Of a stretch of 12,267 nt of DNA, positions 1 through 12,267 are shown piece after piece. The stretch's first letter is position 1, and each line of letters starts with the position of its first letter. A program made the position numbers and the translations under genes. Under the pieces are notes generated by a model. The model did no database searches. It worked only from the letters and a program-made list of their open reading frames with translations, and was not told the origin of the DNA. The stretch is from Treponema sp. (GTDB lineage Bacteria; Spirochaetota; Spirochaetia; Treponematales; Breznakiellaceae): positions 1-12,267 of the forward strand of contig WQZT01000024.1 in the NCBI GenBank assembly GCA_009780595.1, in the 5' to 3' direction.

Positions 1-749
1 GCTTGAATGGAAAGAGGCTTTTCGGCGGCTATCAATTTGAACAAAAAGGGCAATTTTCCGCACCCCGCCGCCGTTTCCTGCCCAAGAAACATTTCAACAT
101 CGTAGCCAATTAAATCCGGCAGAGAAAGCGTTTTTTCCCCATTTCCACCGTTCCCGTCAGGCAGAATCACGCGGGAAGGAGCGGCGGGGTGTACACCCAT
201 CCAAAGCTCCGCCCAGGGAATCTGGCTTAGGTTTCTCTGCCTCATAAGCTCAGGAATCCATCTCGACGAACCCCATTCGTAGTTTTTTACCGTGTTTTGA
301 AGTTTAAAAAACACCGCTGGTATTTTTTTCACAGATGCGGAAGCTTCTGTTTGCGGCGCACAAGGGGAGGGTACACTCTCGTTTGGAGTATCGTTCAACT
401 GCTGGCTTGACTGGCAATCATTCTTCGGAGCATTACGCGGAGTTTCATCACCATCTTCCGCTGGCAAGATCTCCTGGAGACTCAAAATCATTCCCGGAAT
501 AATCTCATCAAGTTCGCCAGATGCTTTTTTTTCGGCGGCGGCACTTTCCGCCTTGCGAAGCTCATCGCACAACAGAAAACCGCTTAGTATGGCAATTTTT
601 AGAGGGTCTTGTAAGGAAGAAATGCGCTGAACATTTTTGACAACTTCCCGGTATTTAGAAAGAAGCGTATCCAAATATTCTGGCTTTTCCTCAGCGGATA
701 TGGTAACAGACGTTCCCAAAATATCAATACGTAGATTGCTTTTTTCCAT
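1..749 (-). CDS. ZapA-ManA fusion protein (cell-division ZapA domain joined to type I mannose-6-phosphate isomerase), partial
   Basis: The minus-strand frame from ATG at 749 is open to the window edge (249 full codons). I read every codon and found no stop. Residues 1-68 are a ZapA domain: the start MEKSNLRIDILGTSVTISAE is the usual ZapA beta-strand region, followed by YLDTLLSKYREVV and LKIAILSGFLLCDEL helices. ZapA binds and bundles FtsZ at the division ring. Residues about 69-143 are a linker rich in Ala, Glu, Ser, Pro and Asn. From about residue 145 the protein matches ManA: LQNTVKNYEWGS, WAELWMGVHPAAPSRV and LPFLFKLIAAEKPLSIQ resemble E. coli ManA, which has NYAWGS, AELWMGAHP and PLSIQVHP. 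ManA interconverts mannose 6-phosphate and fructose 6-phosphate using zinc; Gln249 corresponds to a zinc ligand. The start lies 12 bases after the zapB-like stop with no clear Shine-Dalgarno, so translation is probably coupled. No internal start with a ribosome site precedes the ManA part. The C-terminal remainder lies outside the window. Confidence 0.85.
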   Translation of the reverse strand, partial: MEKSNLRIDILGTSVTISAEEKPEYLDTLLSKYREVVKNVQRISSLQDPLKIAILSGFLLCDELRKAESAAAEKKASGELDEIIPGMILSLQEILPAEDGDETPRNAPKNDCQSSQQLNDTPNESVPSPCAPQTEASASVKKIPAVFFKLQNTVKNYEWGSSRWIPELMRQRNLSQIPWAELWMGVHPAAPSRVILPDGNGGNGEKTLSLPDLIGYDVEMFLGQETAAGCGKLPFLFKLIAAEKPLSIQ

Positions 750-761
750 AGGGTGTCAACG

Positions 762-1202
762 CTAAAAAATGTCCAGCTCCTGTTTTGACTTTTCGTTATT
801 GCTTGGCGCTGTTGCTGGCGGCACTTCCGGGTCAGGTATCAATACTGTACCGGAAGCCTCTTTTTCTTTTTTCTCAGGGGTGTCTGTGCCTTGTTGCAGG
901 GAAACAGCAGGCTTTTCAGCGGAAAGCGTTTTCTCCGCAACCGGATGCTTTTCCACAGAAAGCGCTTTCTCCACAGCGTCCTCAAACTGATTAAGCCTGT
1001 CCAGCGCGGAGAGAATTCCGTTTTCAATACGGCTTTGCTCTTCCTTAAACTGCTGAATGAGAACCTCAAGCTCGTCAATCCGTTCTTGGTACGAATCAAG
1101 CTTTCCCTTCAGGGTTTTATTCTCTTCGGTTACTTTTTTGACGTAATCAACCGCCTTCGTAACTTTGGATTCAAGCAGTTTAATCTGTTCCAGGCTTACC
1201 AT
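762..1202 (-). CDS. ZapB-like coiled-coil cell-division protein
   Basis: This is a 146-residue soluble protein. Residues 1-80 form one long heptad-type coiled coil. The start [20 protein letters not shown] resembles the ZapB family start (E. coli SLEVFEKLEAKVQQAIDT). In E. coli ZapB is a coiled-coil protein that binds ZapA and links the Z ring to the chromosome terminus, and the gene right downstream here encodes a ZapA domain, which supports the call. Residues 77-100 are a tandem pair of 12-residue units (VEKALSVEKHPV, then AEKTLSAEKPAV). The rest is a Pro, Glu and Lys-rich tail that ends in ELDIF. At 146 residues it is longer than E. coli ZapB (about 80) because of this tail. Its ATG shares one base with the rplT stop (TAATG), so it is probably translated by coupling; GGGGG just upstream may serve as the ribosome site. 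The alternative is an unrelated short coiled-coil protein. Confidence 0.65.
   Translation of the reverse strand: MVSLEQIKLLESKVTKAVDYVKKVTEENKTLKGKLDSYQERIDELEVLIQQFKEEQSRIENGILSALDRLNQFEDAVEKALSVEKHPVAEKTLSAEKPAVSLQQGTDTPEKKEKEASGTVLIPDPEVPPATAPSNNEKSKQELDIF
903..974 (-). repeat. 36-bp imperfect tandem duplication inside the zapB-like gene
   Basis: Two adjacent 36-base units (974-939 and 938-903 when aligned to codons) encode related 12-residue segments, VEKALSVEKHPV and AEKTLSAEKPAV. The DNA units share long identical blocks such as AAAGCG and TTTCTCC. The repeat keeps the reading frame and lies in the tail after the coiled coil. Confidence 0.7.
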
Positions 1203-1794: not shown

Positions 1795-2316
1795 TTACTT
1801 TTTGGATTTTGGGCTTAATACCATTGACATAAACCTTCCTTCCATTGATGGCGGTTTATCCATTGCATATTCCCCTTCGATCCTTGCTAAAACGTCTTTC
1901 AGAACAACCAACCCGAGTTCTGTGTGGGCCATTTCCCGGCCCCTGAAACGGACCGTAACTTTGACCTTGTTGCCTTCACCCAAAAATTCCCGAATATGCT
2001 TGGACTTAAAATCCAAATCATGGTCGTCTATTTTTGGCTGCATACGGATTTCTTTCAGTTTTAGCAACTTTTGCCGCTTCTTAGAATCCCGTACTTTCTT
2101 TTCATTTTCGAATTTGAACTTGCCGTAGTTCATGATCTTGACAACTGGCGGAGCCGCATTGGGAGCAACTTCTACCAAGTCAAGCCCCTGCTCTCTGGCG
2201 ATTGCAAGCGCCTGCATCGTCGGCATAACTACCTGCTGTTGTTCGCCTTCATCGCGGATGAGGCGAACCTCATGCACCCGAATCTGCTCGTTAATTCGTA
2301 AATCCTTATCCGACAA
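1795..2316 (-). CDS. infC: Translation initiation factor IF-3
   Basis: This is a 173-residue protein with the two IF3 domains. The N-terminal domain begins [15 protein letters not shown] and contains [20 protein letters not shown], then YGKFKFE. A Lys-rich linker leads to the C-terminal domain with the signatures [31 protein letters not shown] and [15 protein letters not shown]3 binds the 30S subunit, keeps subunits apart and checks the start codon and initiator tRNA. The start is TTG at 2316, behind a strong AGGAGG about 4-5 bases away; an in-frame TGA just upstream rules out a longer protein. Rare infC starts are known from other bacteria (AUU in E. coli, used for autoregulation), but TTG is a milder departure. 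It is the first gene of the operon, with the promoter and leader hairpin described separately. Confidence 0.97.
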
Positions 2317-2660: not shown

Positions 2661-3263
2661 CTAATTCGCCTCCATAGCCTGAAAACGCTCGCGGACTTGC
2701 TGGAGCAGTCTCAGCTCACGGTTGATTGTTCGCGCGTAGTTGAATTGCCCGTTGCGTATGCGGTGGGCTTCGTCTTCCCAAAACTGTACTTGTTGGAGGT
2801 TGAGCCAGCGGAAGCTGGGATTGTCAAGGCGTTCCAGCCACGCAAGCGCCTCGCCCCAATAGAATAGCGCCGCGCGAAAACTCGTTTCGGCGATTTCAAG
2901 CGACGACAGAATTGGTTCCCGAAACGGTGCGTTGAAGAAAAAGGCGTTCCGCTTGTTCCACATATTCCCTAAAAACATATGCTGTTCGGCAAGGCGGATG
3001 TTGACGTGCATCATAAAAAGATAGCGGTACTTTTCCCACTGGACTTCGTTTTCTATGCGGGTGAGCGCGTGAAGGGGATTGGCAAAGGGCGCGTTCAGCG
3101 CTTGCTCCAGCCAGTAAATATTTTCGATATAGTTATCCGGCGTGCGGTTGTGGTGAGTGTGAAATAGGCGGTAAAACTCTTCCTTATATGTAACAAAACG
3201 CGCGGAGGCAGTTTCTGCGGCAAACAGGAGGAAGAGCGCAAGGAGCGGGATACATCGTTTCAC
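2661..3263 (-). CDS. Exported protein of unknown function, translationally coupled to tmk
   Basis: This is a 200-residue protein. Residues 1-21 (MKRCIPLLALFLLFAAETAS, then Ala) are a classical signal peptide with a likely signal peptidase I site after TASA. Cys4 is too early and lacks a lipobox, so I do not call it a lipoprotein. The mature part is rich in aromatic residues and mostly helical, with WEKYRYLFMMHVNIRLAEQH, NAFFFNAPFREP and FRAALFYWGEALAWLE segments, which suggests a periplasmic all-helical fold. I believe similar proteins exist in other treponemes but know no function. The start is GTG, overlapping the tmk TGA as GTGA; an ATG close by (GATGTATCC) is out of frame. No Shine-Dalgarno stands clear of the start, so translation probably depends on tmk. 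Its last codons include copy 2 of the 24-bp direct repeat. Confidence 0.8.
   Translation of the reverse strand: MKRCIPLLALFLLFAAETASARFVTYKEEFYRLFHTHHNRTPDNYIENIYWLEQALNAPFANPLHALTRIENEVQWEKYRYLFMMHVNIRLAEQHMFLGNMWNKRNAFFFNAPFREPILSSLEIAETSFRAALFYWGEALAWLERLDNPSFRWLNLQQVQFWEDEAHRIRNGQFNYARTINRELRLLQQVRERFQAMEAN
2691..2714. repeat. 24-bp perfect direct repeat, copy 2 (inside the exported-protein gene)
   Basis: This is identical to 2477-2500. On the minus strand it encodes LRLLQQVR near the C-terminus of the exported protein. The gene continues ten codons beyond it to its stop at 2661. This copy is probably the original and the intergenic copy the derived one, since this one is part of a coding frame. 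Confidence 0.9.
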
Positions 3264-3898
3264 CTTTTCATTATCGGCAGTTTTTGGATAATGCGCCGGA
3301 CTTCCTGTGCCACCGTTTGCACATCGGACGCGGCGTCAACCACTTCGACTATCACGCCCTGCGCCTGGAAACGGGGCAGCAAGTTCTTGTAGCGGGTGCG
3401 TACCTTAATTTGAAAATCGAGGTACTCGTAAATCTCTTGCATATCTCGCCCTGCCATTCGGCGCTGGGCGGTTTCAGGCTCAATATCGAAAAAAATAAGC
3501 AGTTGCGGCAGGGGAAAATCGCCGTTCAGTTTTTCAGGCAGTGCGTCGCCGCATTCAAGCCCCTGATACACCAGCGATGACGGCAGGTAGCGGTCGGAAA
3601 CCACGAGTTCTCCCCGCGCACAGCGTTCGGCAACGCCGCCTGAGGCGTAGATATGCTCGTTGCGGTCGGCGGCAAACAGCATCGCCGCTGTTTGCGGGAG
3701 CAGGGCGGTTTCTTTGCGTAAAAACGAGCGAATGAGCTTTCCGATGGAACTATTTGTCGGCTCGGTTGTTTTATACAGTGGAGGCAGGTGGAGTTGCTCG
3801 GGGTTGCGGCTGAAAAAATCTTCCAGCAGACCAAGCTGGGTTGTTGTGCCGGAGCCATCGCCGCCCTCAAAGACAACAAAATTATCGAGAATTTTCAT
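3260..3898 (-). CDS. tmk: Thymidylate kinase (dTMP kinase) with variant P-loop
   Basis: This is a 212-residue protein of normal family length. It phosphorylates dTMP to dTDP with ATP, a required step to dTTP. Visible family signatures are the P-loop strand FVVFEGGDGSGTTTQ (residues 7-21), the TTEPTNSSIGKLIRSFL segment (44-60), FAADRNEHI (75-83), the thymidylate kinase motif SDRYLPSSLVYQG (101-113) and a LID/late region RRMAGRDMQEIYEYLDFQIK. The Walker A lysine is replaced: the codon at 3847-3845 is ACA (Thr18) where GxxGxGK[ST] expects Lys. Everything else is intact, so I do not regard it as a pseudogene. The ATG at 3898 lacks an obvious ribosome site. It overlaps the downstream exported-protein gene by four bases and is divergent from tamB across 118 bases (64 to the alternative tamB start). 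Confidence 0.93.
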   Translation of the reverse strand: MKILDNFVVFEGGDGSGTTTQLGLLEDFFSRNPEQLHLPPLYKTTEPTNSSIGKLIRSFLRKETALLPQTAAMLFAADRNEHIYASGGVAERCARGELVVSDRYLPSSLVYQGLECGDALPEKLNGDFPLPQLLIFFDIEPETAQRRMAGRDMQEIYEYLDFQIKVRTRYKNLLPRFQAQGVIVEVVDAASDVQTVAQEVRRIIQKLPIMKR

Positions 3899-4016
3899 AC
3901 AGAATAGGGTATACTATTAGTTAAAAGAGTACAATCGGGGTTATTCCCCCACGACGGATTTTGTGGTACAATTGCCCAAATATTTGGCGAAATCAGGCAG
4001 AGCAGAGGGGCGGAAC

Positions 4017-7000
4017 GTGGCAGAACGAAAAGACGGCAGGGAAGGGGAGAAAAGTTTTCTTTCTTTCGCGGGCTTTTTTTTGAAAATTCTCGTTGTTGCC
4101 GTTTTTGTGGCGGGTACTGTTGCCATAATTCGCCCGTTGCACAGCGCCCTTTTGGAGCGGATGGAGCGGGGGCGCGATGTTTTTTTCAGCCGCCTTGAGG
4201 AATACTGGGGGCGCCGGATTCAGTACAGCTCGATGGGGCCTCCTGTTTTCGGTGCGCTGGATATTCGCGATGTCCGAATCCTGCGTGAGGATGACAGCGT
4301 TCTTTTAAGCATTGCGCGCATTAGGCTTTCATATTCGCTTATCAGCCTTGTGCGGGGAAATATCTTTGATTCTTTCCATTCTGTGCGGCTTGATCAGCCG
4401 GTTTTGAACCTTGATGTTGAAAAAGATGCTGATATAGTAGAACGTTTTGCGTTGAGTAATAATCGGAACGGGCAAACGGCTTCCTCCCCGCAATCGGCGG
4501 TTTATCCGGCATCGGCGGCAGAATCTGCTCCGGCTTCCCCGCAGGCGCGGATAACGATTGAGGGGTTGCGCGAACTTTTGCCCGAAGGGTTTTCCCTGCG
4601 GGTTTGGAACGGAACGTGGGACATTGCCGGAAGTGCGGGCAGTGTGGCGCTCCAAGGCTTTGATTTTGGCGTTTCGATGAGCAGCGAGAGTTTCCGGTTT
4701 CAGGGAGGCTGGAACGCTTCTGCTGCCATGAACGGGGAACTGGGGTTGAGCGCGGCGATGGCTGCCCGCATCAGCGGGGAGTATATGCACGAAAGCGGGG
4801 AGGGCAGCGTTACGCTGGCGATTCCTTCCTTTGGCGGGGAATATGTGAAGGTCAGCCCGTTGAGCTTTACGTTTCTGCTCTCCAACGGCGCTATTGAAGG
4901 GCAAAAATCCCACGGTAGTTCTCAGGCATCCGGGCAGCTTTTTTACGATTTTGAAATGGGCAAGTTTTCCAGCACTATCGAGGGTAATAATTTTCCCCTT
5001 TCGGAGCTGCTGAGTTTTTCCGGCCCATGGGCGGACTACGCGCCTTTGCAGGGCATACTGATTTCAGGCAGCGCATCGTTTGAATTGGAGCGCTCTGGTC
5101 TCCCCGTGTACAGCATTCTGCTGTCCGGTTTTCGCCCTGGTGAAACGCCGGATGATGAAGCCGCTTTGTCCCTTGACCTGCGGGGAATCGGGGGCGATAT
5201 AACAGTCGGCGCGCTGGAACTGCAATCGTCCAACGGAAACGTGAGTTTTCACGGCGGTATGGATATGCTCGCCGCCGCCCCCTACGGTGAACTGTTCCTT
5301 GCCAACTTCAGCCGCAGCCAGGACATTCCCGGCGTCAGCGGCACCTTTACGCTGGGCGCGCACGGGCGGGAAATCACCCTTTCCGGCCACAACCTGAGTG
5401 CCGCCGGAGACTCACTCCAGGCGCTGGATGCCGCGCTGTCCCGCGAAGATGGTGGATTTACCTTCTATCTTTCAGCCCTCGCCGGAAAATCAAGCGGCGG
5501 GATCGGCGGTTCAGGCGGAGCTATGCTCATTCAAGGCTCGGTGGATAATAGCCCCCGGCAGTTCAGGACAACCCTGCTCATGGACTCGTTCCCGATTGCC
5601 GGACTATTCAGCTTTGTCGAGCCGATTATGCCCTTACCGGAACGTTTTGCACCGCTCCGTACCGCCGCCACTGGTACTTCTGTAACCACCGAATCGTTCT
5701 TTGCCGCGTACGGCGAGCATATTCTTTACAATGTTCCAAGTCTGACGCTTGTTCACTCAGGCGGCCCCAACGATATTGCAGCCTCCGTATCCTTTGCCGG
5801 AACGGAGCGGCGCTTTGATTTAAGCACAGGCCGCGTTACGTGGAAAGGCGAAAGCGCCGATATTGTCGCTTCTGCCGATTTCGCCAACCCCGATGACGTT
5901 ACCTTTTCTTTCAGCGCAACCTACCAAGACTTGATGTACTATATTGGCGGTTCGGTTACAGAACGCCGCCACATCAACGCCGCCGGTTCCTACGGTTTTA
6001 TGCTCGATATAAACAGTGCGGAGGATGGCTCGCGCCGCGGATACGCTCAGGCAGAAAATATCCCCTTTGCCTCCGGCAACGGACATGCGCTGCTCAGTTT
6101 TCTGTTTTCCCTTCAGCACAATTCTGCCGATTCGTGGGAGGCGGCAATCGAGCGTTTTGAAATATCAGGGCTTGCTACCCCTGCCTCCTCCTCCGCATCC
6201 CTGCACGTAACCGGGTTTGCTAACGAAAGTGCTCTTAATATTCCAGTAATAGTTTTTAATGACGGGCTTGGTACACTGCAAGGCAGTCTTTCTGCCGACT
6301 GGGATTTTGCACAATCGCGCTACACGTTTGAAGCGGATATGCGTGGGAACAGTTTGAGCGAGCTATACATTGTGAACGGAGCGATTGACGGCGGGCGGCT
6401 GGAACTTGATTTTTCAGGGTACGGGATGCAGCTCAGGCGGGCAAGTGCTTACGATGCCGTTGCGGATGCCGGTTTTCGCCTTTCCTGGGAATCGATAAAC
6501 TCATTCCTTGCGGAAGCGGAGCTGTCCTCGCTGATTATGCGCGATGGCAACGAAACGCTCGTAGCGGCGGCATCCGCCAGTGTAAACCAGGAAACTTTTT
6601 CGCTCCGCAATGTGAGTGCCAGCTATGCCGGCCTGCAAGCCTCTGTCCCCAATTTGACGATAGACCGCGCATCTTCTCAGGCGTACACTCGGGGCGTGAT
6701 ACAGGGAAGTCTTTACGAGCGCCCTGTGGATATTGTCTTCCGGAGCGAGGTGTCCTTCAGCGCTGCGCAAACGTGGGCGCAACTGCTGCGGGGATTTGAT
6801 CGTCTGGAAGGTTCTCTGGCGTTCGACACCGCCAAATATTACACGCAGGAAGCGCAGGAGCCGTTCAGTTTTGAGTTTGCCTCCCTACGGCAGCAGGGCG
6901 GCGGTTTTTCCGTCAACGTAAGCGGCGGCCCGCAGAACATGCTGCGTTTTATGTACAGCCCTGCTGACAACCCCGCCCTGAGTACGGGAACGTTCTTTGC

Positions 7001-8588
7001 CGCCCTTTCATCCCCATCTCCCGTGCGAGGCTCGATTGCCGGTTCAATGAGCGCTGCCACGATAGACGCGCATATGCCCGATTTGTACGTGGATTTGGAG
7101 TCGCTGTCGCAGTTTATGCCGCCCGATTTATCAGTTTACTTCCCCGCCGGTTTTGTTTCAGGTTCCGTTCGCATAGTGGGACCTTTGGCAGACCCCGGGT
7201 TTTACGGCAGCGTGATCGGCACTGGCGTGCATATTGTCGTTCCTGAGTTTATCCCCCAGCCCATTCGCCCCGTGCCGGTAACGTTTTTGCTCAACGGGAG
7301 CGAAATGAGCTTTGGCCCGATATTTACCGAAGTAGGGCGCGGCGGCGGGATGGCATCCGCCGAATTTGTCTTTGATCGCTGGGTGCCCGACACATTCAGC
7401 ATCGATATTCAAGTGCCGCAGGAAACACCCATCCCTTACGGGTTTGACATCGACGGGCTTTTTGCTGGCGGGCTGGTGTCGGGAAGGCTTGCGCTCGCCA
7501 TGGAAGAAAAGTTGCTTTCGGTTACTGGGGCGCTGACGGCTCACAACACCGAAATAAGCCTCGGTGCGGCAGGTTTCTTTGCGGAAGGGCCGTTGGGCAT
7601 TTTCGGGAACGAGCCGTTCGGTATCGGCACGGCTGCAACTATGCCGATGACCATTTCTCGTGACAGCGAAAGCGTCGTCGATAAGTTTATAAATCTCTCC
7701 ATTCGCTCAGGCCGCCGTGTGGAATTCTTCTGGCCGAGCGTTAATTTCCCCATGCTGCAAGCCACGGCAACGATGGGTTCGCTTATTCATATCACCAGCG
7801 AGACTGCGTCAGGGAGTTTTAACCTTACCGGAGATGTTGATTTGCGGAGCGGGGAGATTTTCTACCTTGAACGCAACTTTTATATCCGCGAAGGCACGTT
7901 GTTCTTTAACGAAAACGAGACGGAGTTCAATCCCCGCATTACAGCCCGCGCGGAAATACGCGAAGTCTCGGAGTCCGGGCCGGTAACCATCTCCATGATT
8001 ATCGAGAACGAACCGCTCATGTCATTTTCCCCCCGTTTTGTGTCGAATCCACCTCTGTCGCCAATAGAGGTTTTCTCTATTTTGGGGCAGGTTCCGCGGG
8101 AGGGCGAAGCTGCGCGCAACGTGGGAATGTCCGCTGCGCTTGACACACTGGCGCAATTTTCGGTGATGCGGCGGATTCAGCGCCAAGCCCGCGACCTTTT
8201 GGGGCTTGATATGCTTTCGATACGCACGCAAGTCATCAACAACGTTCTGTTTCCCGGCGTTGTCAACCAGTCTGGGGAAGATACAGGCCTTACCCCCGCT
8301 CGACCAAACACACTTGGTAACTATTTTGACAATACTACTGTTTTCATAGGTAGATACTTCGGTAACGTAATTTTTGCTCAGGCAATGCTTACCGTCAAAT
8401 ACGATGAATTTAGGACAAGCGCAGGAGGTGTGATGTTGGAGCCGGAGCTGGGTTTTGAAATGAGAGGACCTCTGTTTGACGTTCGCTTTAATATGATTCC
8501 GCTAAACCCGGAAAACTGGTTTATAGAAGATACTTCCATTTCGTTTCTTATGAGAATGGAACATTTAATGAAAATTGTACGCGGATAA
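4017..8588 (+). CDS. tamB: TamB-family inner-membrane-anchored translocation/assembly protein
   Basis: This is a protein of 1523 residues. A basic N-terminus leads to one membrane anchor (residues about 15-38, FFLKILVVAVFVAGTVAII), followed by a very long beta-rich, Ser and Gly-rich periplasmic region and the C-terminal TamB (DUF490) domain. In that domain LTGDVDLRSGEIFYLE (about 1270-1285), then REGTLFFNENETEFNPRIT and VSNPPLSPIEVFSILGQVP are the recognisable family blocks. TamB proteins form a hydrophobic groove that bridges the periplasm and are implicated in phospholipid transport and outer-membrane protein assembly. In spirochaetes TamB pairs with BamA, the next gene. It is longer than E. 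coli TamB (1259). I prefer GTG 4017, 8 bases after GAGG. GTG 3963 in the same frame adds 18 residues but has only a weak GGAT upstream. No second membrane segment was seen. Confidence 0.93.
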   Translation: MAERKDGREGEKSFLSFAGFFLKILVVAVFVAGTVAIIRPLHSALLERMERGRDVFFSRLEEYWGRRIQYSSMGPPVFGALDIRDVRILREDDSVLLSIARIRLSYSLISLVRGNIFDSFHSVRLDQPVLNLDVEKDADIVERFALSNNRNGQTASSPQSAVYPASAAESAPASPQARITIEGLRELLPEGFSLRVWNGTWDIAGSAGSVALQGFDFGVSMSSESFRFQGGWNASAAMNGELGLSAAMAARISGEYMHESGEGSVTLAIPSFGGEYVKVSPLSFTFLLSNGAIEGQKSHGSSQASGQLFYDFEMGKFSSTIEGNNFPLSELLSFSGPWADYAPLQGILISGSASFELERSGLPVYSILLSGFRPGETPDDEAALSLDLRGIGGDITVGALELQSSNGNVSFHGGMDMLAAAPYGELFLANFSRSQDIPGVSGTFTLGAHGREITLSGHNLSAAGDSLQALDAALSREDGGFTFYLSALAGKSSGGIGGSGGAMLIQGSVDNSPRQFRTTLLMDSFPIAGLFSFVEPIMPLPERFAPLRTAATGTSVTTESFFAAYGEHILYNVPSLTLVHSGGPNDIAASVSFAGTERRFDLSTGRVTWKGESADIVASADFANPDDVTFSFSATYQDLMYYIGGSVTERRHINAAGSYGFMLDINSAEDGSRRGYAQAENIPFASGNGHALLSFLFSLQHNSADSWEAAIERFEISGLATPASSSASLHVTGFANESALNIPVIVFNDGLGTLQGSLSADWDFAQSRYTFEADMRGNSLSELYIVNGAIDGGRLELDFSGYGMQLRRASAYDAVADAGFRLSWESINSFLAEAELSSLIMRDGNETLVAAASASVNQETFSLRNVSASYAGLQASVPNLTIDRASSQAYTRGVIQGSLYERPVDIVFRSEVSFSAAQTWAQLLRGFDRLEGSLAFDTAKYYTQEAQEPFSFEFASLRQQGGGFSVNVSGGPQNMLRFMYSPADNPALSTGTFFAALSSPSPVRGSIAGSMSAATIDAHMPDLYVDLESLSQFMPPDLSVYFPAGFVSGSVRIVGPLADPGFYGSVIGTGVHIVVPEFIPQPIRPVPVTFLLNGSEMSFGPIFTEVGRGGGMASAEFVFDRWVPDTFSIDIQVPQETPIPYGFDIDGLFAGGLVSGRLALAMEEKLLSVTGALTAHNTEISLGAAGFFAEGPLGIFGNEPFGIGTAATMPMTISRDSESVVDKFINLSIRSGRRVEFFWPSVNFPMLQATATMGSLIHITSETASGSFNLTGDVDLRSGEIFYLERNFYIREGTLFFNENETEFNPRITARAEIREVSESGPVTISMIIENEPLMSFSPRFVSNPPLSPIEVFSILGQVPREGEAARNVGMSAALDTLAQFSVMRRIQRQARDLLGLDMLSIRTQVINNVLFPGVVNQSGEDTGLTPARPNTLGNYFDNTTVFIGRYFGNVIFAQAMLTVKYDEFRTSAGGVMLEPELGFEMRGPLFDVRFNMIPLNPENWFIEDTSISFLMRMEHLMKIVRG

Positions 8589-8631
8589 GACTTTAAACTT
8601 TTCTTTTTTTTTGAGATGATAGAGAAAGCGA

Positions 8632-8651
8632 CCGCGAACTGTAGTTTGCGG
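8632..8651 (+). promoter_or_regulatory. Hairpin in the tamB-bamA spacer (bamA leader)
   Basis: CCGCGAACT (8632-8640) pairs with AGTTTGCGG (8643-8651) over nine positions, with one G-T wobble and a two-base loop, so eight pairs are realistic. It is followed by ATAAGAG, not a T-run, and the only T-run (8604-8612) lies upstream, so this is not an intrinsic terminator. It ends 34 bases before the bamA ATG and could shape or stabilise the bamA transcript. Function is inference. Confidence 0.4.
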
Positions 8652-8685
8652 ATAAGAGTAAGACAAGCGTATTCGAGGAGTATAG

Positions 8686-11199
8686 ATGCGTTTTGGTTTA
8701 GCATTTGTTTTGGCAACGGTACTGGCTTTTTCAGGGTTTGCCCAGCAACAGAACGAATGGTTTCAGGGAAAACCTATCAAAAACATTGTTTTCGAAGGAC
8801 TCGTACACATAAGCGCTTCGGAACTCGATGGAATTATCGAGCCCTTTATCGGCGCGCCCTTCAGCGACAGCGCCTACTGGGAGCTTCTGGGGCGCCTGTA
8901 CGCCCTTGAGTATTTTGATAACCTCAGCCCCACGGCGATTCCGGTGGATTCTGCTGCCAGCGGGGTTGTTATCCGCTTCACCGTTACCGAACGGCCAACA
9001 ATTGCGCGGATCACGTTTTCCGGCAACAGCAACATCAGGCGAACGGAGCTGCTGAACCTGATAACGCTCAGCACAAACGATGTTGCCACGCAGCTTCGCC
9101 TGAGAATGGACGAGACGGCGATTGTCAACCGCTACCTTGAACGGGGATTCCCCGATATTAAGGTTAGAGCCGAGACGGAAACTATCAGCCCTTCGCGGGT
9201 TGTATTGACGTTTCATATCGAAGAGGGCGAAAAGATAGCAATCGAGCGTATTCTCTTTGAGGGGAACACGGTTTTCACGTCCCGCGTTTTACAGCGGCAG
9301 CTTTCCCTGCGAACGCGCCGCCTTTTCGTTGACGGTGCGTTCAGCGAGGCTGCCCTTATTGCCGACCGCCAAGCCATCCAGCAGCATTATCACGACCGCG
9401 GGTTTATCGATGCGGCGGTAATCGACGATGTGCGGGAAATCCGCAAGGACGACCGTGGCAACAACCTCATGACGATTACCTTTAGAATCCACGAAGGCAG
9501 GATGTATACCTTTGGCGGAGTTACCTTTTCAGGCAACAGTATTTTTACCACCGAGCAGCTTTCGGCGCAGGTGCGTTCGCGTGTAGGCGCTCCGGTAAAC
9601 TCCCGGCAGTTGCAATCCGACCTTATGCGGGTGTCGGCGATGTACTTTGAAGGCGGTTATATTTTCAACCGCATAGAACCAATTCAAACGCAAAACTCGG
9701 AGACAGGAGTTCTTACCGTCAATGTAGATATTGTAGAGCGGGGGCGGGCGCACATCGAAAATATCATTATCCGGGGGAACACAAAAACCCGTGATTCGGT
9801 AATTCTGCGGGAATTGCCGCTGGTGCCGGGGGATGTTTTTTCTCAGGCAAAGATTATCGAAGGGATGCGGAATCTTTTTAACCTTCAGTTTTTCTCTGCC
9901 ATCAACCCGGAAACGCCTCCTGGCAGTGTTGATGCCCTCATGGATTTGGTGATTAACGTTGAAGAGCAGATGACCACCGATGTGCAGTTCGGTTTAACCT
10001 TCTCAGGTTCTTCCGACCCTAGTACGCTTCCGATATCGGCTATGGTGCGGTGGACAGATAGAAACTTTATGGGTACGGGTAACACGGTGGGTGCTGATGC
10101 TACCTACTCGTCTGATTCTCAGGTTCTTTCAATGCAGTATACCCAACGTTGGGCACTGGGTTTGCCTCTTTCGGCGAATTTTGATTTTACCATCCAGCGT
10201 AATCAACGCAGGGCGCCAATGGCGAATTTTGACTATCTTTTTAACGGGGATGAGTCATTTGCCTTTCCCGCTGGTTTTGATAGTTTTGATCAATACCTAG
10301 AGGCACGGAGAACTCCTCCCAGCGAATACCTGATGACGTATAGCCAGTGGCGCTTGTCGCTGGGCGTTGGAACGGGTTACCGCTGGACGACAGCGGCGGG
10401 GATTTTGGGAGTGGGTGTTGGTTTCCGGGTGGGAATGGTGTTGAACAGCTACGACCAGGAAATTTTTACGCCGTTTGATCCGCTGTTGCGGAATCGCAAC
10501 AATTTGTGGACTCCGGCTACTTCCGTGTGGACAAGCGTCTCTCTCGATCGGCGCGATGTATTTTTCGATCCCACCAGCGGCTATTACTTGTTACAGCGGT
10601 TGGGCTGGTTCGGGATTATGCCGATAGAACAGGAGCATTATATCCGCACCGATTCAAGGGCGCAGTGGTTCTACACCCTTTTGAATCTTCCTGTTACAGA
10701 GAACTGGAACTTCCGGGTAGTGTTTGGTATCAATTCGGCACTTTCCTTTATTTTCCCCCAGCCCCAGCACAGCCAGCCCTTCATCGAAGAAGCCAACCAG
10801 CTTTCTGTTGACGGGATGTTTGTCGGCCGCGGCTGGATATCTGAGTTCAGGCGGCGTGGTTTGGCGCTGTGGGATAACTGGGCGGAGTTACGCATCCCCT
10901 TAGCGCCGGGTATTCTTGCGCTGGATTTCTTCTTTGATGCGGCGGGTATTGCTCCTACTCCCTCAGATATGTTCAGTTCCAATTATTGGCACAATGACGG
11001 AAGTGCGCCGGATCATAACACGTTCTTTTTGCGGTTCAGCGTGGGCGGCGGTTTGCGCTTTACCATACCGCAGTTCCCGATTCGGCTCAGCTTTGCCCGC
11101 CGCGCCTTGATACAGGACGGAAGTTGGCAGTGGCAGCAGGGTGCTCTTTTCGGCAACACATTGGACTTTGTTGTTTCTTTTGCTATATCTGGTTTTTAA
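8686..11199 (+). CDS. bamA: Outer membrane protein assembly factor BamA (Omp85 family)
   Basis: This is an 837-residue protein. A signal peptide (residues 1-19, cleaved near FSGFAQ) is followed by five POTRA domains, at about 29-104, 105-184, 185-274, 275-354 and 355-428. Each ends in a strand of the FTVTERPTI or ITFRIHEGRMY type, and the next begins with an I..I.F.GN pattern (ITFSGNSNI, ILFEGNTVF, VTFSGNSIF, IIIRGNTKT). The rest (430-837) is the 16-strand barrel, with the Omp85 signature NFMGTGNTVG near its start, DRRDVFFDPTSGYYL, loop-6 motif VGRGW (713-717) and a C-terminal beta-signal ending FAISGF. BamA folds and inserts beta-barrel proteins into the outer membrane. In Treponema pallidum the orthologue (TP0326) is a surface-exposed antigen. 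The ATG has GAGGAG five bases upstream, 97 bases after tamB. A single operon with tamB and skp is likely. Confidence 0.97.
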   Translation: MRFGLAFVLATVLAFSGFAQQQNEWFQGKPIKNIVFEGLVHISASELDGIIEPFIGAPFSDSAYWELLGRLYALEYFDNLSPTAIPVDSAASGVVIRFTVTERPTIARITFSGNSNIRRTELLNLITLSTNDVATQLRLRMDETAIVNRYLERGFPDIKVRAETETISPSRVVLTFHIEEGEKIAIERILFEGNTVFTSRVLQRQLSLRTRRLFVDGAFSEAALIADRQAIQQHYHDRGFIDAAVIDDVREIRKDDRGNNLMTITFRIHEGRMYTFGGVTFSGNSIFTTEQLSAQVRSRVGAPVNSRQLQSDLMRVSAMYFEGGYIFNRIEPIQTQNSETGVLTVNVDIVERGRAHIENIIIRGNTKTRDSVILRELPLVPGDVFSQAKIIEGMRNLFNLQFFSAINPETPPGSVDALMDLVINVEEQMTTDVQFGLTFSGSSDPSTLPISAMVRWTDRNFMGTGNTVGADATYSSDSQVLSMQYTQRWALGLPLSANFDFTIQRNQRRAPMANFDYLFNGDESFAFPAGFDSFDQYLEARRTPPSEYLMTYSQWRLSLGVGTGYRWTTAAGILGVGVGFRVGMVLNSYDQEIFTPFDPLLRNRNNLWTPATSVWTSVSLDRRDVFFDPTSGYYLLQRLGWFGIMPIEQEHYIRTDSRAQWFYTLLNLPVTENWNFRVVFGINSALSFIFPQPQHSQPFIEEANQLSVDGMFVGRGWISEFRRRGLALWDNWAELRIPLAPGILALDFFFDAAGIAPTPSDMFSSNYWHNDGSAPDHNTFFLRFSVGGGLRFTIPQFPIRLSFARRALIQDGSWQWQQGALFGNTLDFVVSFAISGF

Positions 11200-11204
11200 G
11201 GTAG

Positions 11205-11230
11205 TTTTGTATGGTGGTATTTTGTATGGT
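11205..11230 (+). repeat. 11-bp direct repeat between bamA and skp
   Basis: TTTTGTATGGT occurs at 11205-11215 and again at 11220-11230, a spacing of 15 bases, right after the bamA stop and 37 bases before the skp start. It might be a small duplication or a binding site; nothing else supports a role. Confidence 0.55.
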
Positions 11231-11266
11231 ATGTGGAGAGAACATTGGGAGTTGTGGAGGATACCA

Positions 11267-11794
11267 GTGAAGAAATTGTGTTTCATGATTTTTATCTGCC
11301 TAGCTGCAAGTTTGTCGCTTGAAGCCCAGCAGATTACCCGTTTTGCAGTGGTTGATCTTCCGAAGGTGTACATGGCTTTTTTCCGGGAATCCAGGGCAGT
11401 GCGGGATTTTGAAGCGCGGAGCGCGCGCGTGCAGGCTGACATCGACCGGATGACTGGGGAAATCCAGACGCTGCGGGTGAATATGGTAAACGCCCAAGCC
11501 GCCGGGAACGAGGATCAGGCGTTGCGGATGGAGGCGGAAATTAACAGAAGGTCGGAAATTTTACGGGAATTTCACCGTACAAGAACTGCCGATCTGGAAA
11601 CGCAACGGGCGCGCCTGACCCAATCGGACACCTTTCTTAGTCAGGTCTATGATGAGATTCGGTTTATTGCCGAAAGCGAGGGGTTCAGTATGGTTTTGAA
11701 CCTGAACAATAACAACAGCATAGTTTGGTTTAGCCCAACTGTAGATATTACCGACAAGCTTATCAGCAATCTTTTGGCAAATACGAACCGTTAG
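11267..11794 (+). CDS. skp: Periplasmic chaperone Skp/OmpH family
   Basis: This is a 175-residue protein. The signal peptide (VKKLCFMIFICLAASLSLEA) is probably cleaved before QQITRFAVVD. The mature start RFAVVDLPKVYMAFFRESRA matches the Skp pattern (a VD strand, then the S.A/..AVRDFE helix). A charged coiled coil of about residues 45-125 forms the tentacles, and C-terminal strands close the body (YDEIRFIAESEGFSMVLNL, SIVWFSPTVDITDKLISNLL). Skp trimers hold unfolded outer membrane proteins in the periplasm and deliver them to BamA, encoded just upstream. I chose GTG at 11267 because GGAGG lies six bases before it and the signal peptide begins there. An in-frame ATG at 11141 lies inside bamA and would put non-signal sequence first. 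In Treponema pallidum the bamA, skp, mutS order is the same. Confidence 0.92.
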   Translation: MKKLCFMIFICLAASLSLEAQQITRFAVVDLPKVYMAFFRESRAVRDFEARSARVQADIDRMTGEIQTLRVNMVNAQAAGNEDQALRMEAEINRRSEILREFHRTRTADLETQRARLTQSDTFLSQVYDEIRFIAESEGFSMVLNLNNNNSIVWFSPTVDITDKLISNLLANTNR

Positions 11795-11814
11795 AGGTGG
11801 AGAGGTAACGGAAA

Positions 11815-12267
11815 ATTACGGGTGCTGCTGAAACCCCCATGATGGGACAGTACCGGCGGATAAAGCGGGACCATCAGGGAGAAGTTCTTTTTTTCAGGCT
11901 CGGCGACTTTTACGAGATGTTTTCCGATGATGCCGTGGAAGTGTCCGCCCTGCTCAATCTTACTCTTACCAGCCGCGCGGGAACTCCCATGTGCGGCATT
12001 CCTTACCATGCGTCGCGTTCCTACATCGCGCGGCTTTTGCGGCTGGGGAAAAAAATCGCCGTGTGCGAGCAGTCCTCCGAAGGCGGCAAGGGGCTTATGG
12101 AACGCCGCGTCGTGGAGATTATCACGCCCGGAACCGCCATTGACGAAGATTTTCTTGATAAGGGCACTTCCAACTACCTTGCCTGTCTTGCACTTGCCAC
12201 TGATTCTGGCGGTGCTGCTACTGATGTAGCGCCTACTGACGTAGCGCCTGCTTTTTCGTTTTCCTAC
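11815..12267 (+). CDS. mutS: DNA mismatch repair protein MutS, N-terminal part (runs off the window), probable ATT start
   Basis: 151 codons of the N-terminal mismatch-binding domain are visible. ETPMMGQYRRIKRDHQGEVL matches the family start (E. coli HTPMMQQYLRLK). GDFYEMF at residues 30-36 contains the Phe-Tyr-Glu that wedges into a mismatch (F32, Y33, E34). LTLTSRAGTPMCGIPYH and VCEQSSEG, then VVEIITPGTAID, are further family signatures. MutS recognises mismatches and recruits MutL. The start is odd: the ATG ATG at 11839-11844 encode the MM of the conserved TPMM and have no ribosome site. GGAGAGG at 11799-11805 lies 9 bases before ATT at 11815, and an in-frame TAA (11806-11808) blocks anything longer. 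A start at 11839 is the fallback. A TDVAPTDVAP duplication sits at residues 136-145. It begins 20 bases after the skp stop. Confidence 0.9.
   Translation, partial: MTGAAETPMMGQYRRIKRDHQGEVLFFRLGDFYEMFSDDAVEVSALLNLTLTSRAGTPMCGIPYHASRSYIARLLRLGKKIAVCEQSSEGGKGLMERRVVEIITPGTAIDEDFLDKGTSNYLACLALATDSGGAATDVAPTDVAPAFSFSY
12220..12249 (+). repeat. 15-bp tandem repeat within mutS
   Basis: ACTGATGTAGCGCCT (12220-12234) is followed directly by ACTGACGTAGCGCCT (12235-12249), one mismatch. It encodes TDVAP twice, in frame, in a segment between the first MutS domain and the next strand that is longer than in E. coli MutS. It is probably a surface loop. Confidence 0.8.

Follow-up and report, generated by a model that had tools for sequence, protein, structure and literature searches.

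In-frame fusion of the division gene zapA to the mannose-6-phosphate isomerase gene manA in certain spirochaete relatives of the termite-gut treponemes

The window, by which we mean the whole stretch of 12,267 nucleotides analysed here from a Treponema sp. of the Breznakiellaceae, begins with a fused zapA-manA frame (3..749, minus strand). The frame starts with an ATG at 749 and continues for 249 stop-free codons until it is truncated by the contig end, base 1 of the window being base 1 of contig C24. Residues 7-77 form a ZapA domain (519..731, minus strand; PF05164, 32.8 bits against a cut-off of 23.8, E 8.8e-8), and a search of the genome hits the same place. Residues 148-249 (3..308, minus strand) are the N-terminal part of a type I phosphomannose isomerase (PMI) catalytic domain (PF20511, PMI_typeI_cat; 49.7 bits against a cut-off of 22, E 5.3e-13, profile positions 2-99 of 143). 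The proposal of a sequence-only reading, that zapA passes into manA from 749 to 3 without a stop, is thereby confirmed, and both Pfam families whose search it had suggested are above cut-off in the one frame. Its linker of about 75 residues is present but shorter: the gap between the Pfam matches is 70 residues, and the linker proper, taken between the ZapA and ManA profiles of relatives, has 50 (residues 96-145; 315..464, minus strand). What it had called a clear type I mannose-6-phosphate isomerase stands as a family match, with only the N-terminal part inside the window. Its last residue falls, by alignment, on the first of the Zn ligands, a glutamine; roughly three quarters of the isomerase lie outside, and TIGR00218 gives 66.1 against a cut-off of 116.2 on this protein cut by the contig end. 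The remainder of manA was not found elsewhere in the genome, an assembly of 1.73 Mb in 277 contigs that is 64% complete.

The predicted secondary structure of the window protein (strands 4-10 and 13-19, helices 23-44 and 49-75) has the strand-strand-helix-helix order of ZapA. The structure model of this protein is of low quality, with a mean pLDDT of 56. Among the first nine structure matches of this model (E 0.026-0.16), six are labelled ZapA, two are the unlabelled 1t3u, which we take to be ZapA, and one is a PMI; ZapA structures lead the search, the best with an E of only 0.026. A complete relative, the intact 529-aa fusion at locus L003, was modelled with a mean pLDDT of 88. Its PMI blocks are mostly at 94-98 (80 at residues 171-180 and 69 at the end), its ZapA blocks at 48-85, and the linker at residues 97-116 is below 50 and hence predicted to be disordered. 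The best match of the L003 model is the Salmonella PMI 3h1m, with a TM score of 0.89 by target.

Upstream of the fused gene and in the same direction runs the series infC, rpmI, rplT and zapB. The zapB gene (762..1202, minus strand; PF06005, E 1.7e-12) lies 12 bases before the fused gene and encodes a coiled coil, hence its weak matches to other coiled-coil families too. It is preceded in the same run by rplT for ribosomal protein L20 (1202..1561, minus strand; PF00453), rpmI for ribosomal protein L35 (1577..1777, minus strand; PF01632) and infC for translation initiation factor IF-3 (1795..2316, minus strand; PF05198 and PF00707). Farther along, a perfect 24-base direct repeat occurs at 2477-2500 and 2691-2714 (plus strand), 214 bases apart; the second copy falls within the end of a 200-aa frame (2661-3263, minus strand) without a Pfam match. 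The remainder of the window, from 3260 to 12267, is an ordinary outer-membrane assembly cluster: thymidylate kinase (3260-3898, minus strand), a 1541-aa frame that is TamB-like by eye (3963-8588, plus strand), an Omp85/POTRA protein (8686-11199, plus strand), an OmpH protein (11141-11794, plus strand) and a frame resembling by eye the start of MutS (11839-12267, plus strand).

Some spirochaetes related to termite-gut treponemes carry zapA joined in frame to manA. We searched 195 genomes of the family, 178 of which matched with the window protein and 167 with ManA alone; 34 of the 195 were left unread because of no match, no listed coordinates or a stretch that was not retrieved. Stretches were available for 157 genomes or copies, 16 of which were not counted because one of the two genes was missing from the stretch. 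Also left out of the count were L003-L006, which repeat G120, G114, G115 and G076, as well as L007 and a second G060 stretch, both without manA. This first set holds 141 junctions in 139 genomes, with 23 fused stop-free frames (22 genomes, 12 of 48 genera) and 118 separate gene pairs. Six further family junctions came from an order-wide search of 291 genomes, one of them fused (G149, with 577 codons from stop to stop) and the other five separate. The family total is 147 junctions in 145 genomes, 24 of them fused (23 genomes, 12 genera) and 123 separate; fusion is a minority state within the family. The five outgroup junctions, from family f3 of the same order, are all separate. Of the 12 genera with fusions, 11 show no separate junction among those read, and the genus of the window, with all four genomes read fused, is one of these; the genus g54 has 2 fused junctions among 28. 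Apart from the truncated frame of the window, fused frames measure 506-577 codons between stops. The domain order that the sequence-only reading had proposed to look for in relatives was found in 23 family genomes, one of them a single contig. That reading had also held that orthologues with zapA and manA always separate would speak against a fusion; separate genes are common, yet not universal.

Five loci, four of them labelled Treponema, came from a scan of genome contigs: L003 is fused, L004, L005 and L006 have separate, adjacent zapA and manA, and L007, on a contig of the Spirochaetales, has zapA but lacks a ManA match within its 10-kb stretch. Two assemblies carry two zapA-manA copies each, both fused in G116 (L033, L101) and both separate in G113 (L028, L045), by duplication or from mixed strains. 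No zapA was seen on the stretch upstream of manA in genera g16, g21 and g24, where the pair seems to have parted (loci including L136, L139, L133, L127, L141, L152, L157, L159 and L163); some other stretches without zapA stop at a contig end. Most f3 genomes have a single weak match to the fused query (E about 1e-8 to 1e-15) that resembles ZapA alone, manA adjoins zapA in the f3 genomes G288, G318, G343, G354 and G357, and type I PMI may be patchy in that family.

Both parts belong to known families, and the fusion is present in databases under the name of the enzyme. PF05164 and PF20511 occur together in 118 of the 120 listed relatives, the exceptions P0054 and P0108 being without PF05164; these 120 are the best of 7544 proteins above threshold in a search whose scoring was confined to the 7997 candidates with the most words in common. 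One listed relative, P0008 from Leadbettera azotonutricia (Breznakiellaceae), is named "mannose-6-phosphate isomerase class I" and is contained letter for letter in the fused frame of G139, a genome consisting of a single contig of 3,855,671 bases.

The gene trees indicate that fusion is a repeated event, with 6-7 state changes of which 4-5 are forced by well-supported branches. On a tree of 141 concatenated ZapA and ManA rows, the fused label, which had been assigned from sequence before tree building, takes 6 changes, 5 of them forced (support of at least 95), against a mean of 21.6 changes when the labels are shuffled. Under a mixture model, a tree of 97 rows has 6 changes, 4 of them forced, and a tree of 110 rows, which includes G149 and takes five f3 genomes as its root, has 7 changes, 5 of them forced. 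All of these are quick trees built from the zapA and manA genes themselves, and the two smaller ones omit ten long or cut rows, the row of the window included, and thin the large genera. A single origin, with the 23 fused rows as one clade, was rejected (p 1.4e-97 on a quick tree with no mixture model). In the simplest reading, independent fusions would have occurred in g1+g12+g40+g50+g55, in g25+g37+g45, in g31, in g18, in g44, in G177 and in G149. As the five outgroup junctions are separate, gains are favoured over losses; a fusion may have been split again somewhere in the family. Some of the fusions are kept across genera.

Our preferred reading, to which we give a probability of about 0.6, is that the frame encodes a single, obligate protein of two domains by which the isomerase is tethered to FtsZ. 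The product would consist of an N-terminal ZapA, a flexible linker and a C-terminal type I mannose-6-phosphate isomerase. It would have arisen from close or overlapping neighbours in the run infC-rpmI-rplT-zapB-zapA-manA, small changes at the junction probably joining both frames several times independently. By sequence the internal ManA start has been lost, so that PMI would normally be produced solely within the fused protein. According to passages of a report on the solved Klebsiella ZapA-FtsZ structure (PMC12216130), ZapA tetramers tether FtsZ protofilaments through their dimer heads and bundled C-terminal helices. The ZapA part of the fusion most likely keeps its ability to assemble on FtsZ filaments, taking PMI along, and the interconversion of mannose-6-phosphate and fructose-6-phosphate would thereby be placed at the division site, as follows from the known binding of ZapA to FtsZ. 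A fusion tetramer would hold four PMI domains at the Z-ring on tethers of 6-59 residues.

The same anatomy could have a more modest reason for its persistence. Where the genes are separate, the spacing between zapA and manA has a median of 2 bases, and a quarter of the pairs overlap by 7 or more, so that loss of the zapA stop might merely be tolerated between overlapping neighbours; the enzyme would be tethered by accident, both domains would work as before and no coupling of metabolism to division would be implied. We regard such a neutral history as a serious possibility, though not the one to bet on. It is in keeping with the closest fused and separate pair, in which the zapA stop of G180 overlaps the manA ATG and the fused junction of G177 is one base shorter with CTG in place of ATG. 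It also agrees with linkers that range from 6 to 59 residues across fusions and are relaxed in sequence (dN/dS 0.36-1.07 in three fused pairs and no value in one, by simple counting), and with the 123 of 147 separate junctions: most of the family does without the fusion and does not need it. Equally tight junctions in the same stretches, however, never fused. Fusions number 0 of 139 at the zapB-zapA junction, where the median spacing is 9 bases, and 0 of 71 at the manA-yaiI junction, where the median overlap is 4, 70 stretches ending before yaiI, compared with 23 of 141 for zapA-manA (Fisher p 9e-8 and 8e-5, respectively, with genomes treated as independent). Either joining is favoured at the zapA-manA junction or these two protein ends tolerate joining best, and the latter would fit a neutral history as well. 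The several independent fusions, together with the retention of some across genera, likewise weigh against mere tolerance.

Another view accepts the fused frame and supposes that ManA is nevertheless made separately, through an internal start or by proteolysis of the linker. Disordered linkers of the kind predicted here could be cut, and remnants of the old start exist. The window keeps an in-frame GTG at codon 146 (312..314, minus strand), the expected start site of a separate ManA, and a further GTG at codon 140 (330-332, minus strand), with no ATG there and no Shine-Dalgarno-like motif upstream of either. A ManA start of its own near residue 140, which the sequence-only reading would have counted against the fusion if peptides showed it, is conceivable in the window. 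G120 retains an ATG at the former start of ManA, the window and G194 a GTG or TTG only a few codons away from it, and three more fused frames keep a start codon farther upstream. An RNA hairpin over codon 146 was not counted, as 11 of 200 shuffles fold equally well. The comparison with separate genes speaks against an internal start; proteolysis of the linker would be compatible with the sequences, yet a separately made ManA is on the whole unlikely. An ATG near the start of the ManA domain is found in only 1 of 23 fused frames (G120, the same as L003) but in 111 of 118 separate genes, and any start codon (ATG, GTG or TTG) in 6 of 23 against 118 of 118 (Fisher p 1e-18 and 3e-17, related genomes being treated as independent). 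Between 12 codons before and 2 codons after the domain start, ATG, GTG and TTG are all absent from 17 of the 23 fused frames. A Shine-Dalgarno-like motif together with a start was seen in 1 of 23 fused frames and 29 of 118 separate genes, the latter figure making the motif a weak test.

Copy number bears on what each half does. No unfused ZapA (PF05164) and no unfused type I PMI (PF20511) was found in the 22 fused genomes searched, which are 59-99% complete. PF05164 is above cut-off in all 22, with scores of 29-54 bits, and occurs at one place in 21 and at two, both fused, in G116. PF20511 occurs at one place in 20, at two in G116, both again fused, and as two pieces of one frame in G070. Further copies of ZapA or PMI may be missing from most of these assemblies since they are incomplete; G139 is a single contig. 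Nor was a whole type II isomerase seen in the 22 genomes (PF01050), the 20 matches in 16 of them all being small cupins in frames of 115-201 aa. The fusion claimed by the sequence-only reading is thus borne out: it recurs, its ManA start is nearly always gone and unfused copies were not found. The interpretation of that reading is supported to this extent, its placement of the enzyme at the division site and its coupling of sugar metabolism to division being putative. As no unfused copy was found, the fusion should serve both the ZapA and the PMI role, a conclusion to which the intact catalytic residues and purifying selection also point.

The positions of the Zn ligands Gln, His, Glu and His and of the active-site Lys and Arg, which we presume to be correctly labelled and which were matched by alignment to 3h1m, are intact in all 23 complete fused and all 118 separate proteins, while the window reaches only the Gln. 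For the structure alignment, 60 of the 120 listed proteins were taken. All four complete fused proteins tested pass the TIGR00218 cut-off, and none of the four passes that of the narrower NF011710 (298-324 bits against 571). Simple counting puts dN/dS at 0.06-0.19 for ZapA and at 0.18-0.22 for ManA when four fused pairs are compared, and at 0.06-0.10 and 0.20-0.21, respectively, for two separate pairs. The mixed pair of fused G177 and separate G180 gives 0.30 for ZapA, higher than the other pairs, and 0.24 for ManA. These values also bear on the idea that the ZapA domain has lost its binding to FtsZ and acts only as an oligomerisation module for PMI. The modest bit scores of ZapA in the fused genomes would suit such a role, but we think it improbable: purifying selection on ZapA is as strong as in separate pairs, and the domain is the sole ZapA found in these genomes and adjoins zapB. 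An assembly or sequencing error in the window, conceivable for a frame at a contig end of a fragmented, 64%-complete genome, is next to impossible and was rejected on recurrence, since a fused frame in all four genomes read in the genus and in 23 family genomes, a single-contig one among them, is not the fault of one assembly.

The proposed tethered isomerase can be set beside several known proteins. With known ZapA, an FtsZ-bundling protein (PF05164; PMC12216130, as far as passages of that report describe it), the window protein shares a Pfam match above cut-off and the predicted order of strands and helices. Known ZapA stands alone with about 100 residues, whereas here an enzyme is attached at its C-terminal end. 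With type I ManA (PF20511, TIGR00218, Salmonella 3h1m) the complete relatives share sequence, fold and Zn-ligand positions; the known enzyme begins at the catalytic domain, whereas here that domain follows ZapA and a linker and has in most cases no start codon left. OpgH of E. coli is among the metabolic enzymes acting on FtsZ. Another, according to excerpts of PMC8270655, is Bacillus subtilis UgtP, and the fusion would likewise place a sugar enzyme at the Z-ring. Enzymes of the UgtP type bind FtsZ themselves, locate to the septum and change FtsZ assembly with the metabolite level; the fusion is not counted among them here, and its proposed link would be covalent through ZapA. A further parallel is ManA of Bacillus subtilis, likewise a mannose-6-phosphate isomerase and, in passages of PMC2940726, needed for normal shape and division. 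Cells without it show an aberrant wall, polyploidy and abnormal nucleoids even in the absence of mannose, active-site mutants fail to complement, and the effect is ascribed there to the carbohydrate composition of the cell wall; that ManA is unfused. An excerpt of PMC8270655 calls the mechanism uncharacterised. Among the matches listed from open-licence PMC full texts, no published description of a ZapA-ManA fusion appeared; a survey of zapA neighbourhoods in proteobacteria (PMC7641849) describes gene neighbours and, in the portions available, no fusion of ZapA to an enzyme.

Possible consequences of tethering PMI to FtsZ are feedback on ring bundling, supply of envelope precursors or merely a fixed dose of both proteins. 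That the tether regulates cell division is a tentative suggestion, with the odds against it. Similarly doubtful, though possible, is an advantageous coupling in which several lineages independently turned their only ZapA and their only type I PMI into one obligate protein, PMI rides on FtsZ by way of ZapA, and the occupancy or product of septal PMI tunes Z-ring bundling or supplies mannose-derived envelope precursors. If true, the fusion would be a covalent coupler of metabolism and division.

What is known of how the nutrient state is conveyed to the Z-ring comes from a few FtsZ-binding enzymes. Database entries named only mannose-6-phosphate isomerase can hide the only ZapA of a cell. The fusion may be relevant to the unexplained dependence of Bacillus subtilis on ManA for normal shape and division, as portrayed in passages of PMC2940726 and PMC8270655. 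Being recurrent and absent in close relatives, it offers natural paired comparisons for asking whether an enzyme on the Z-ring matters.
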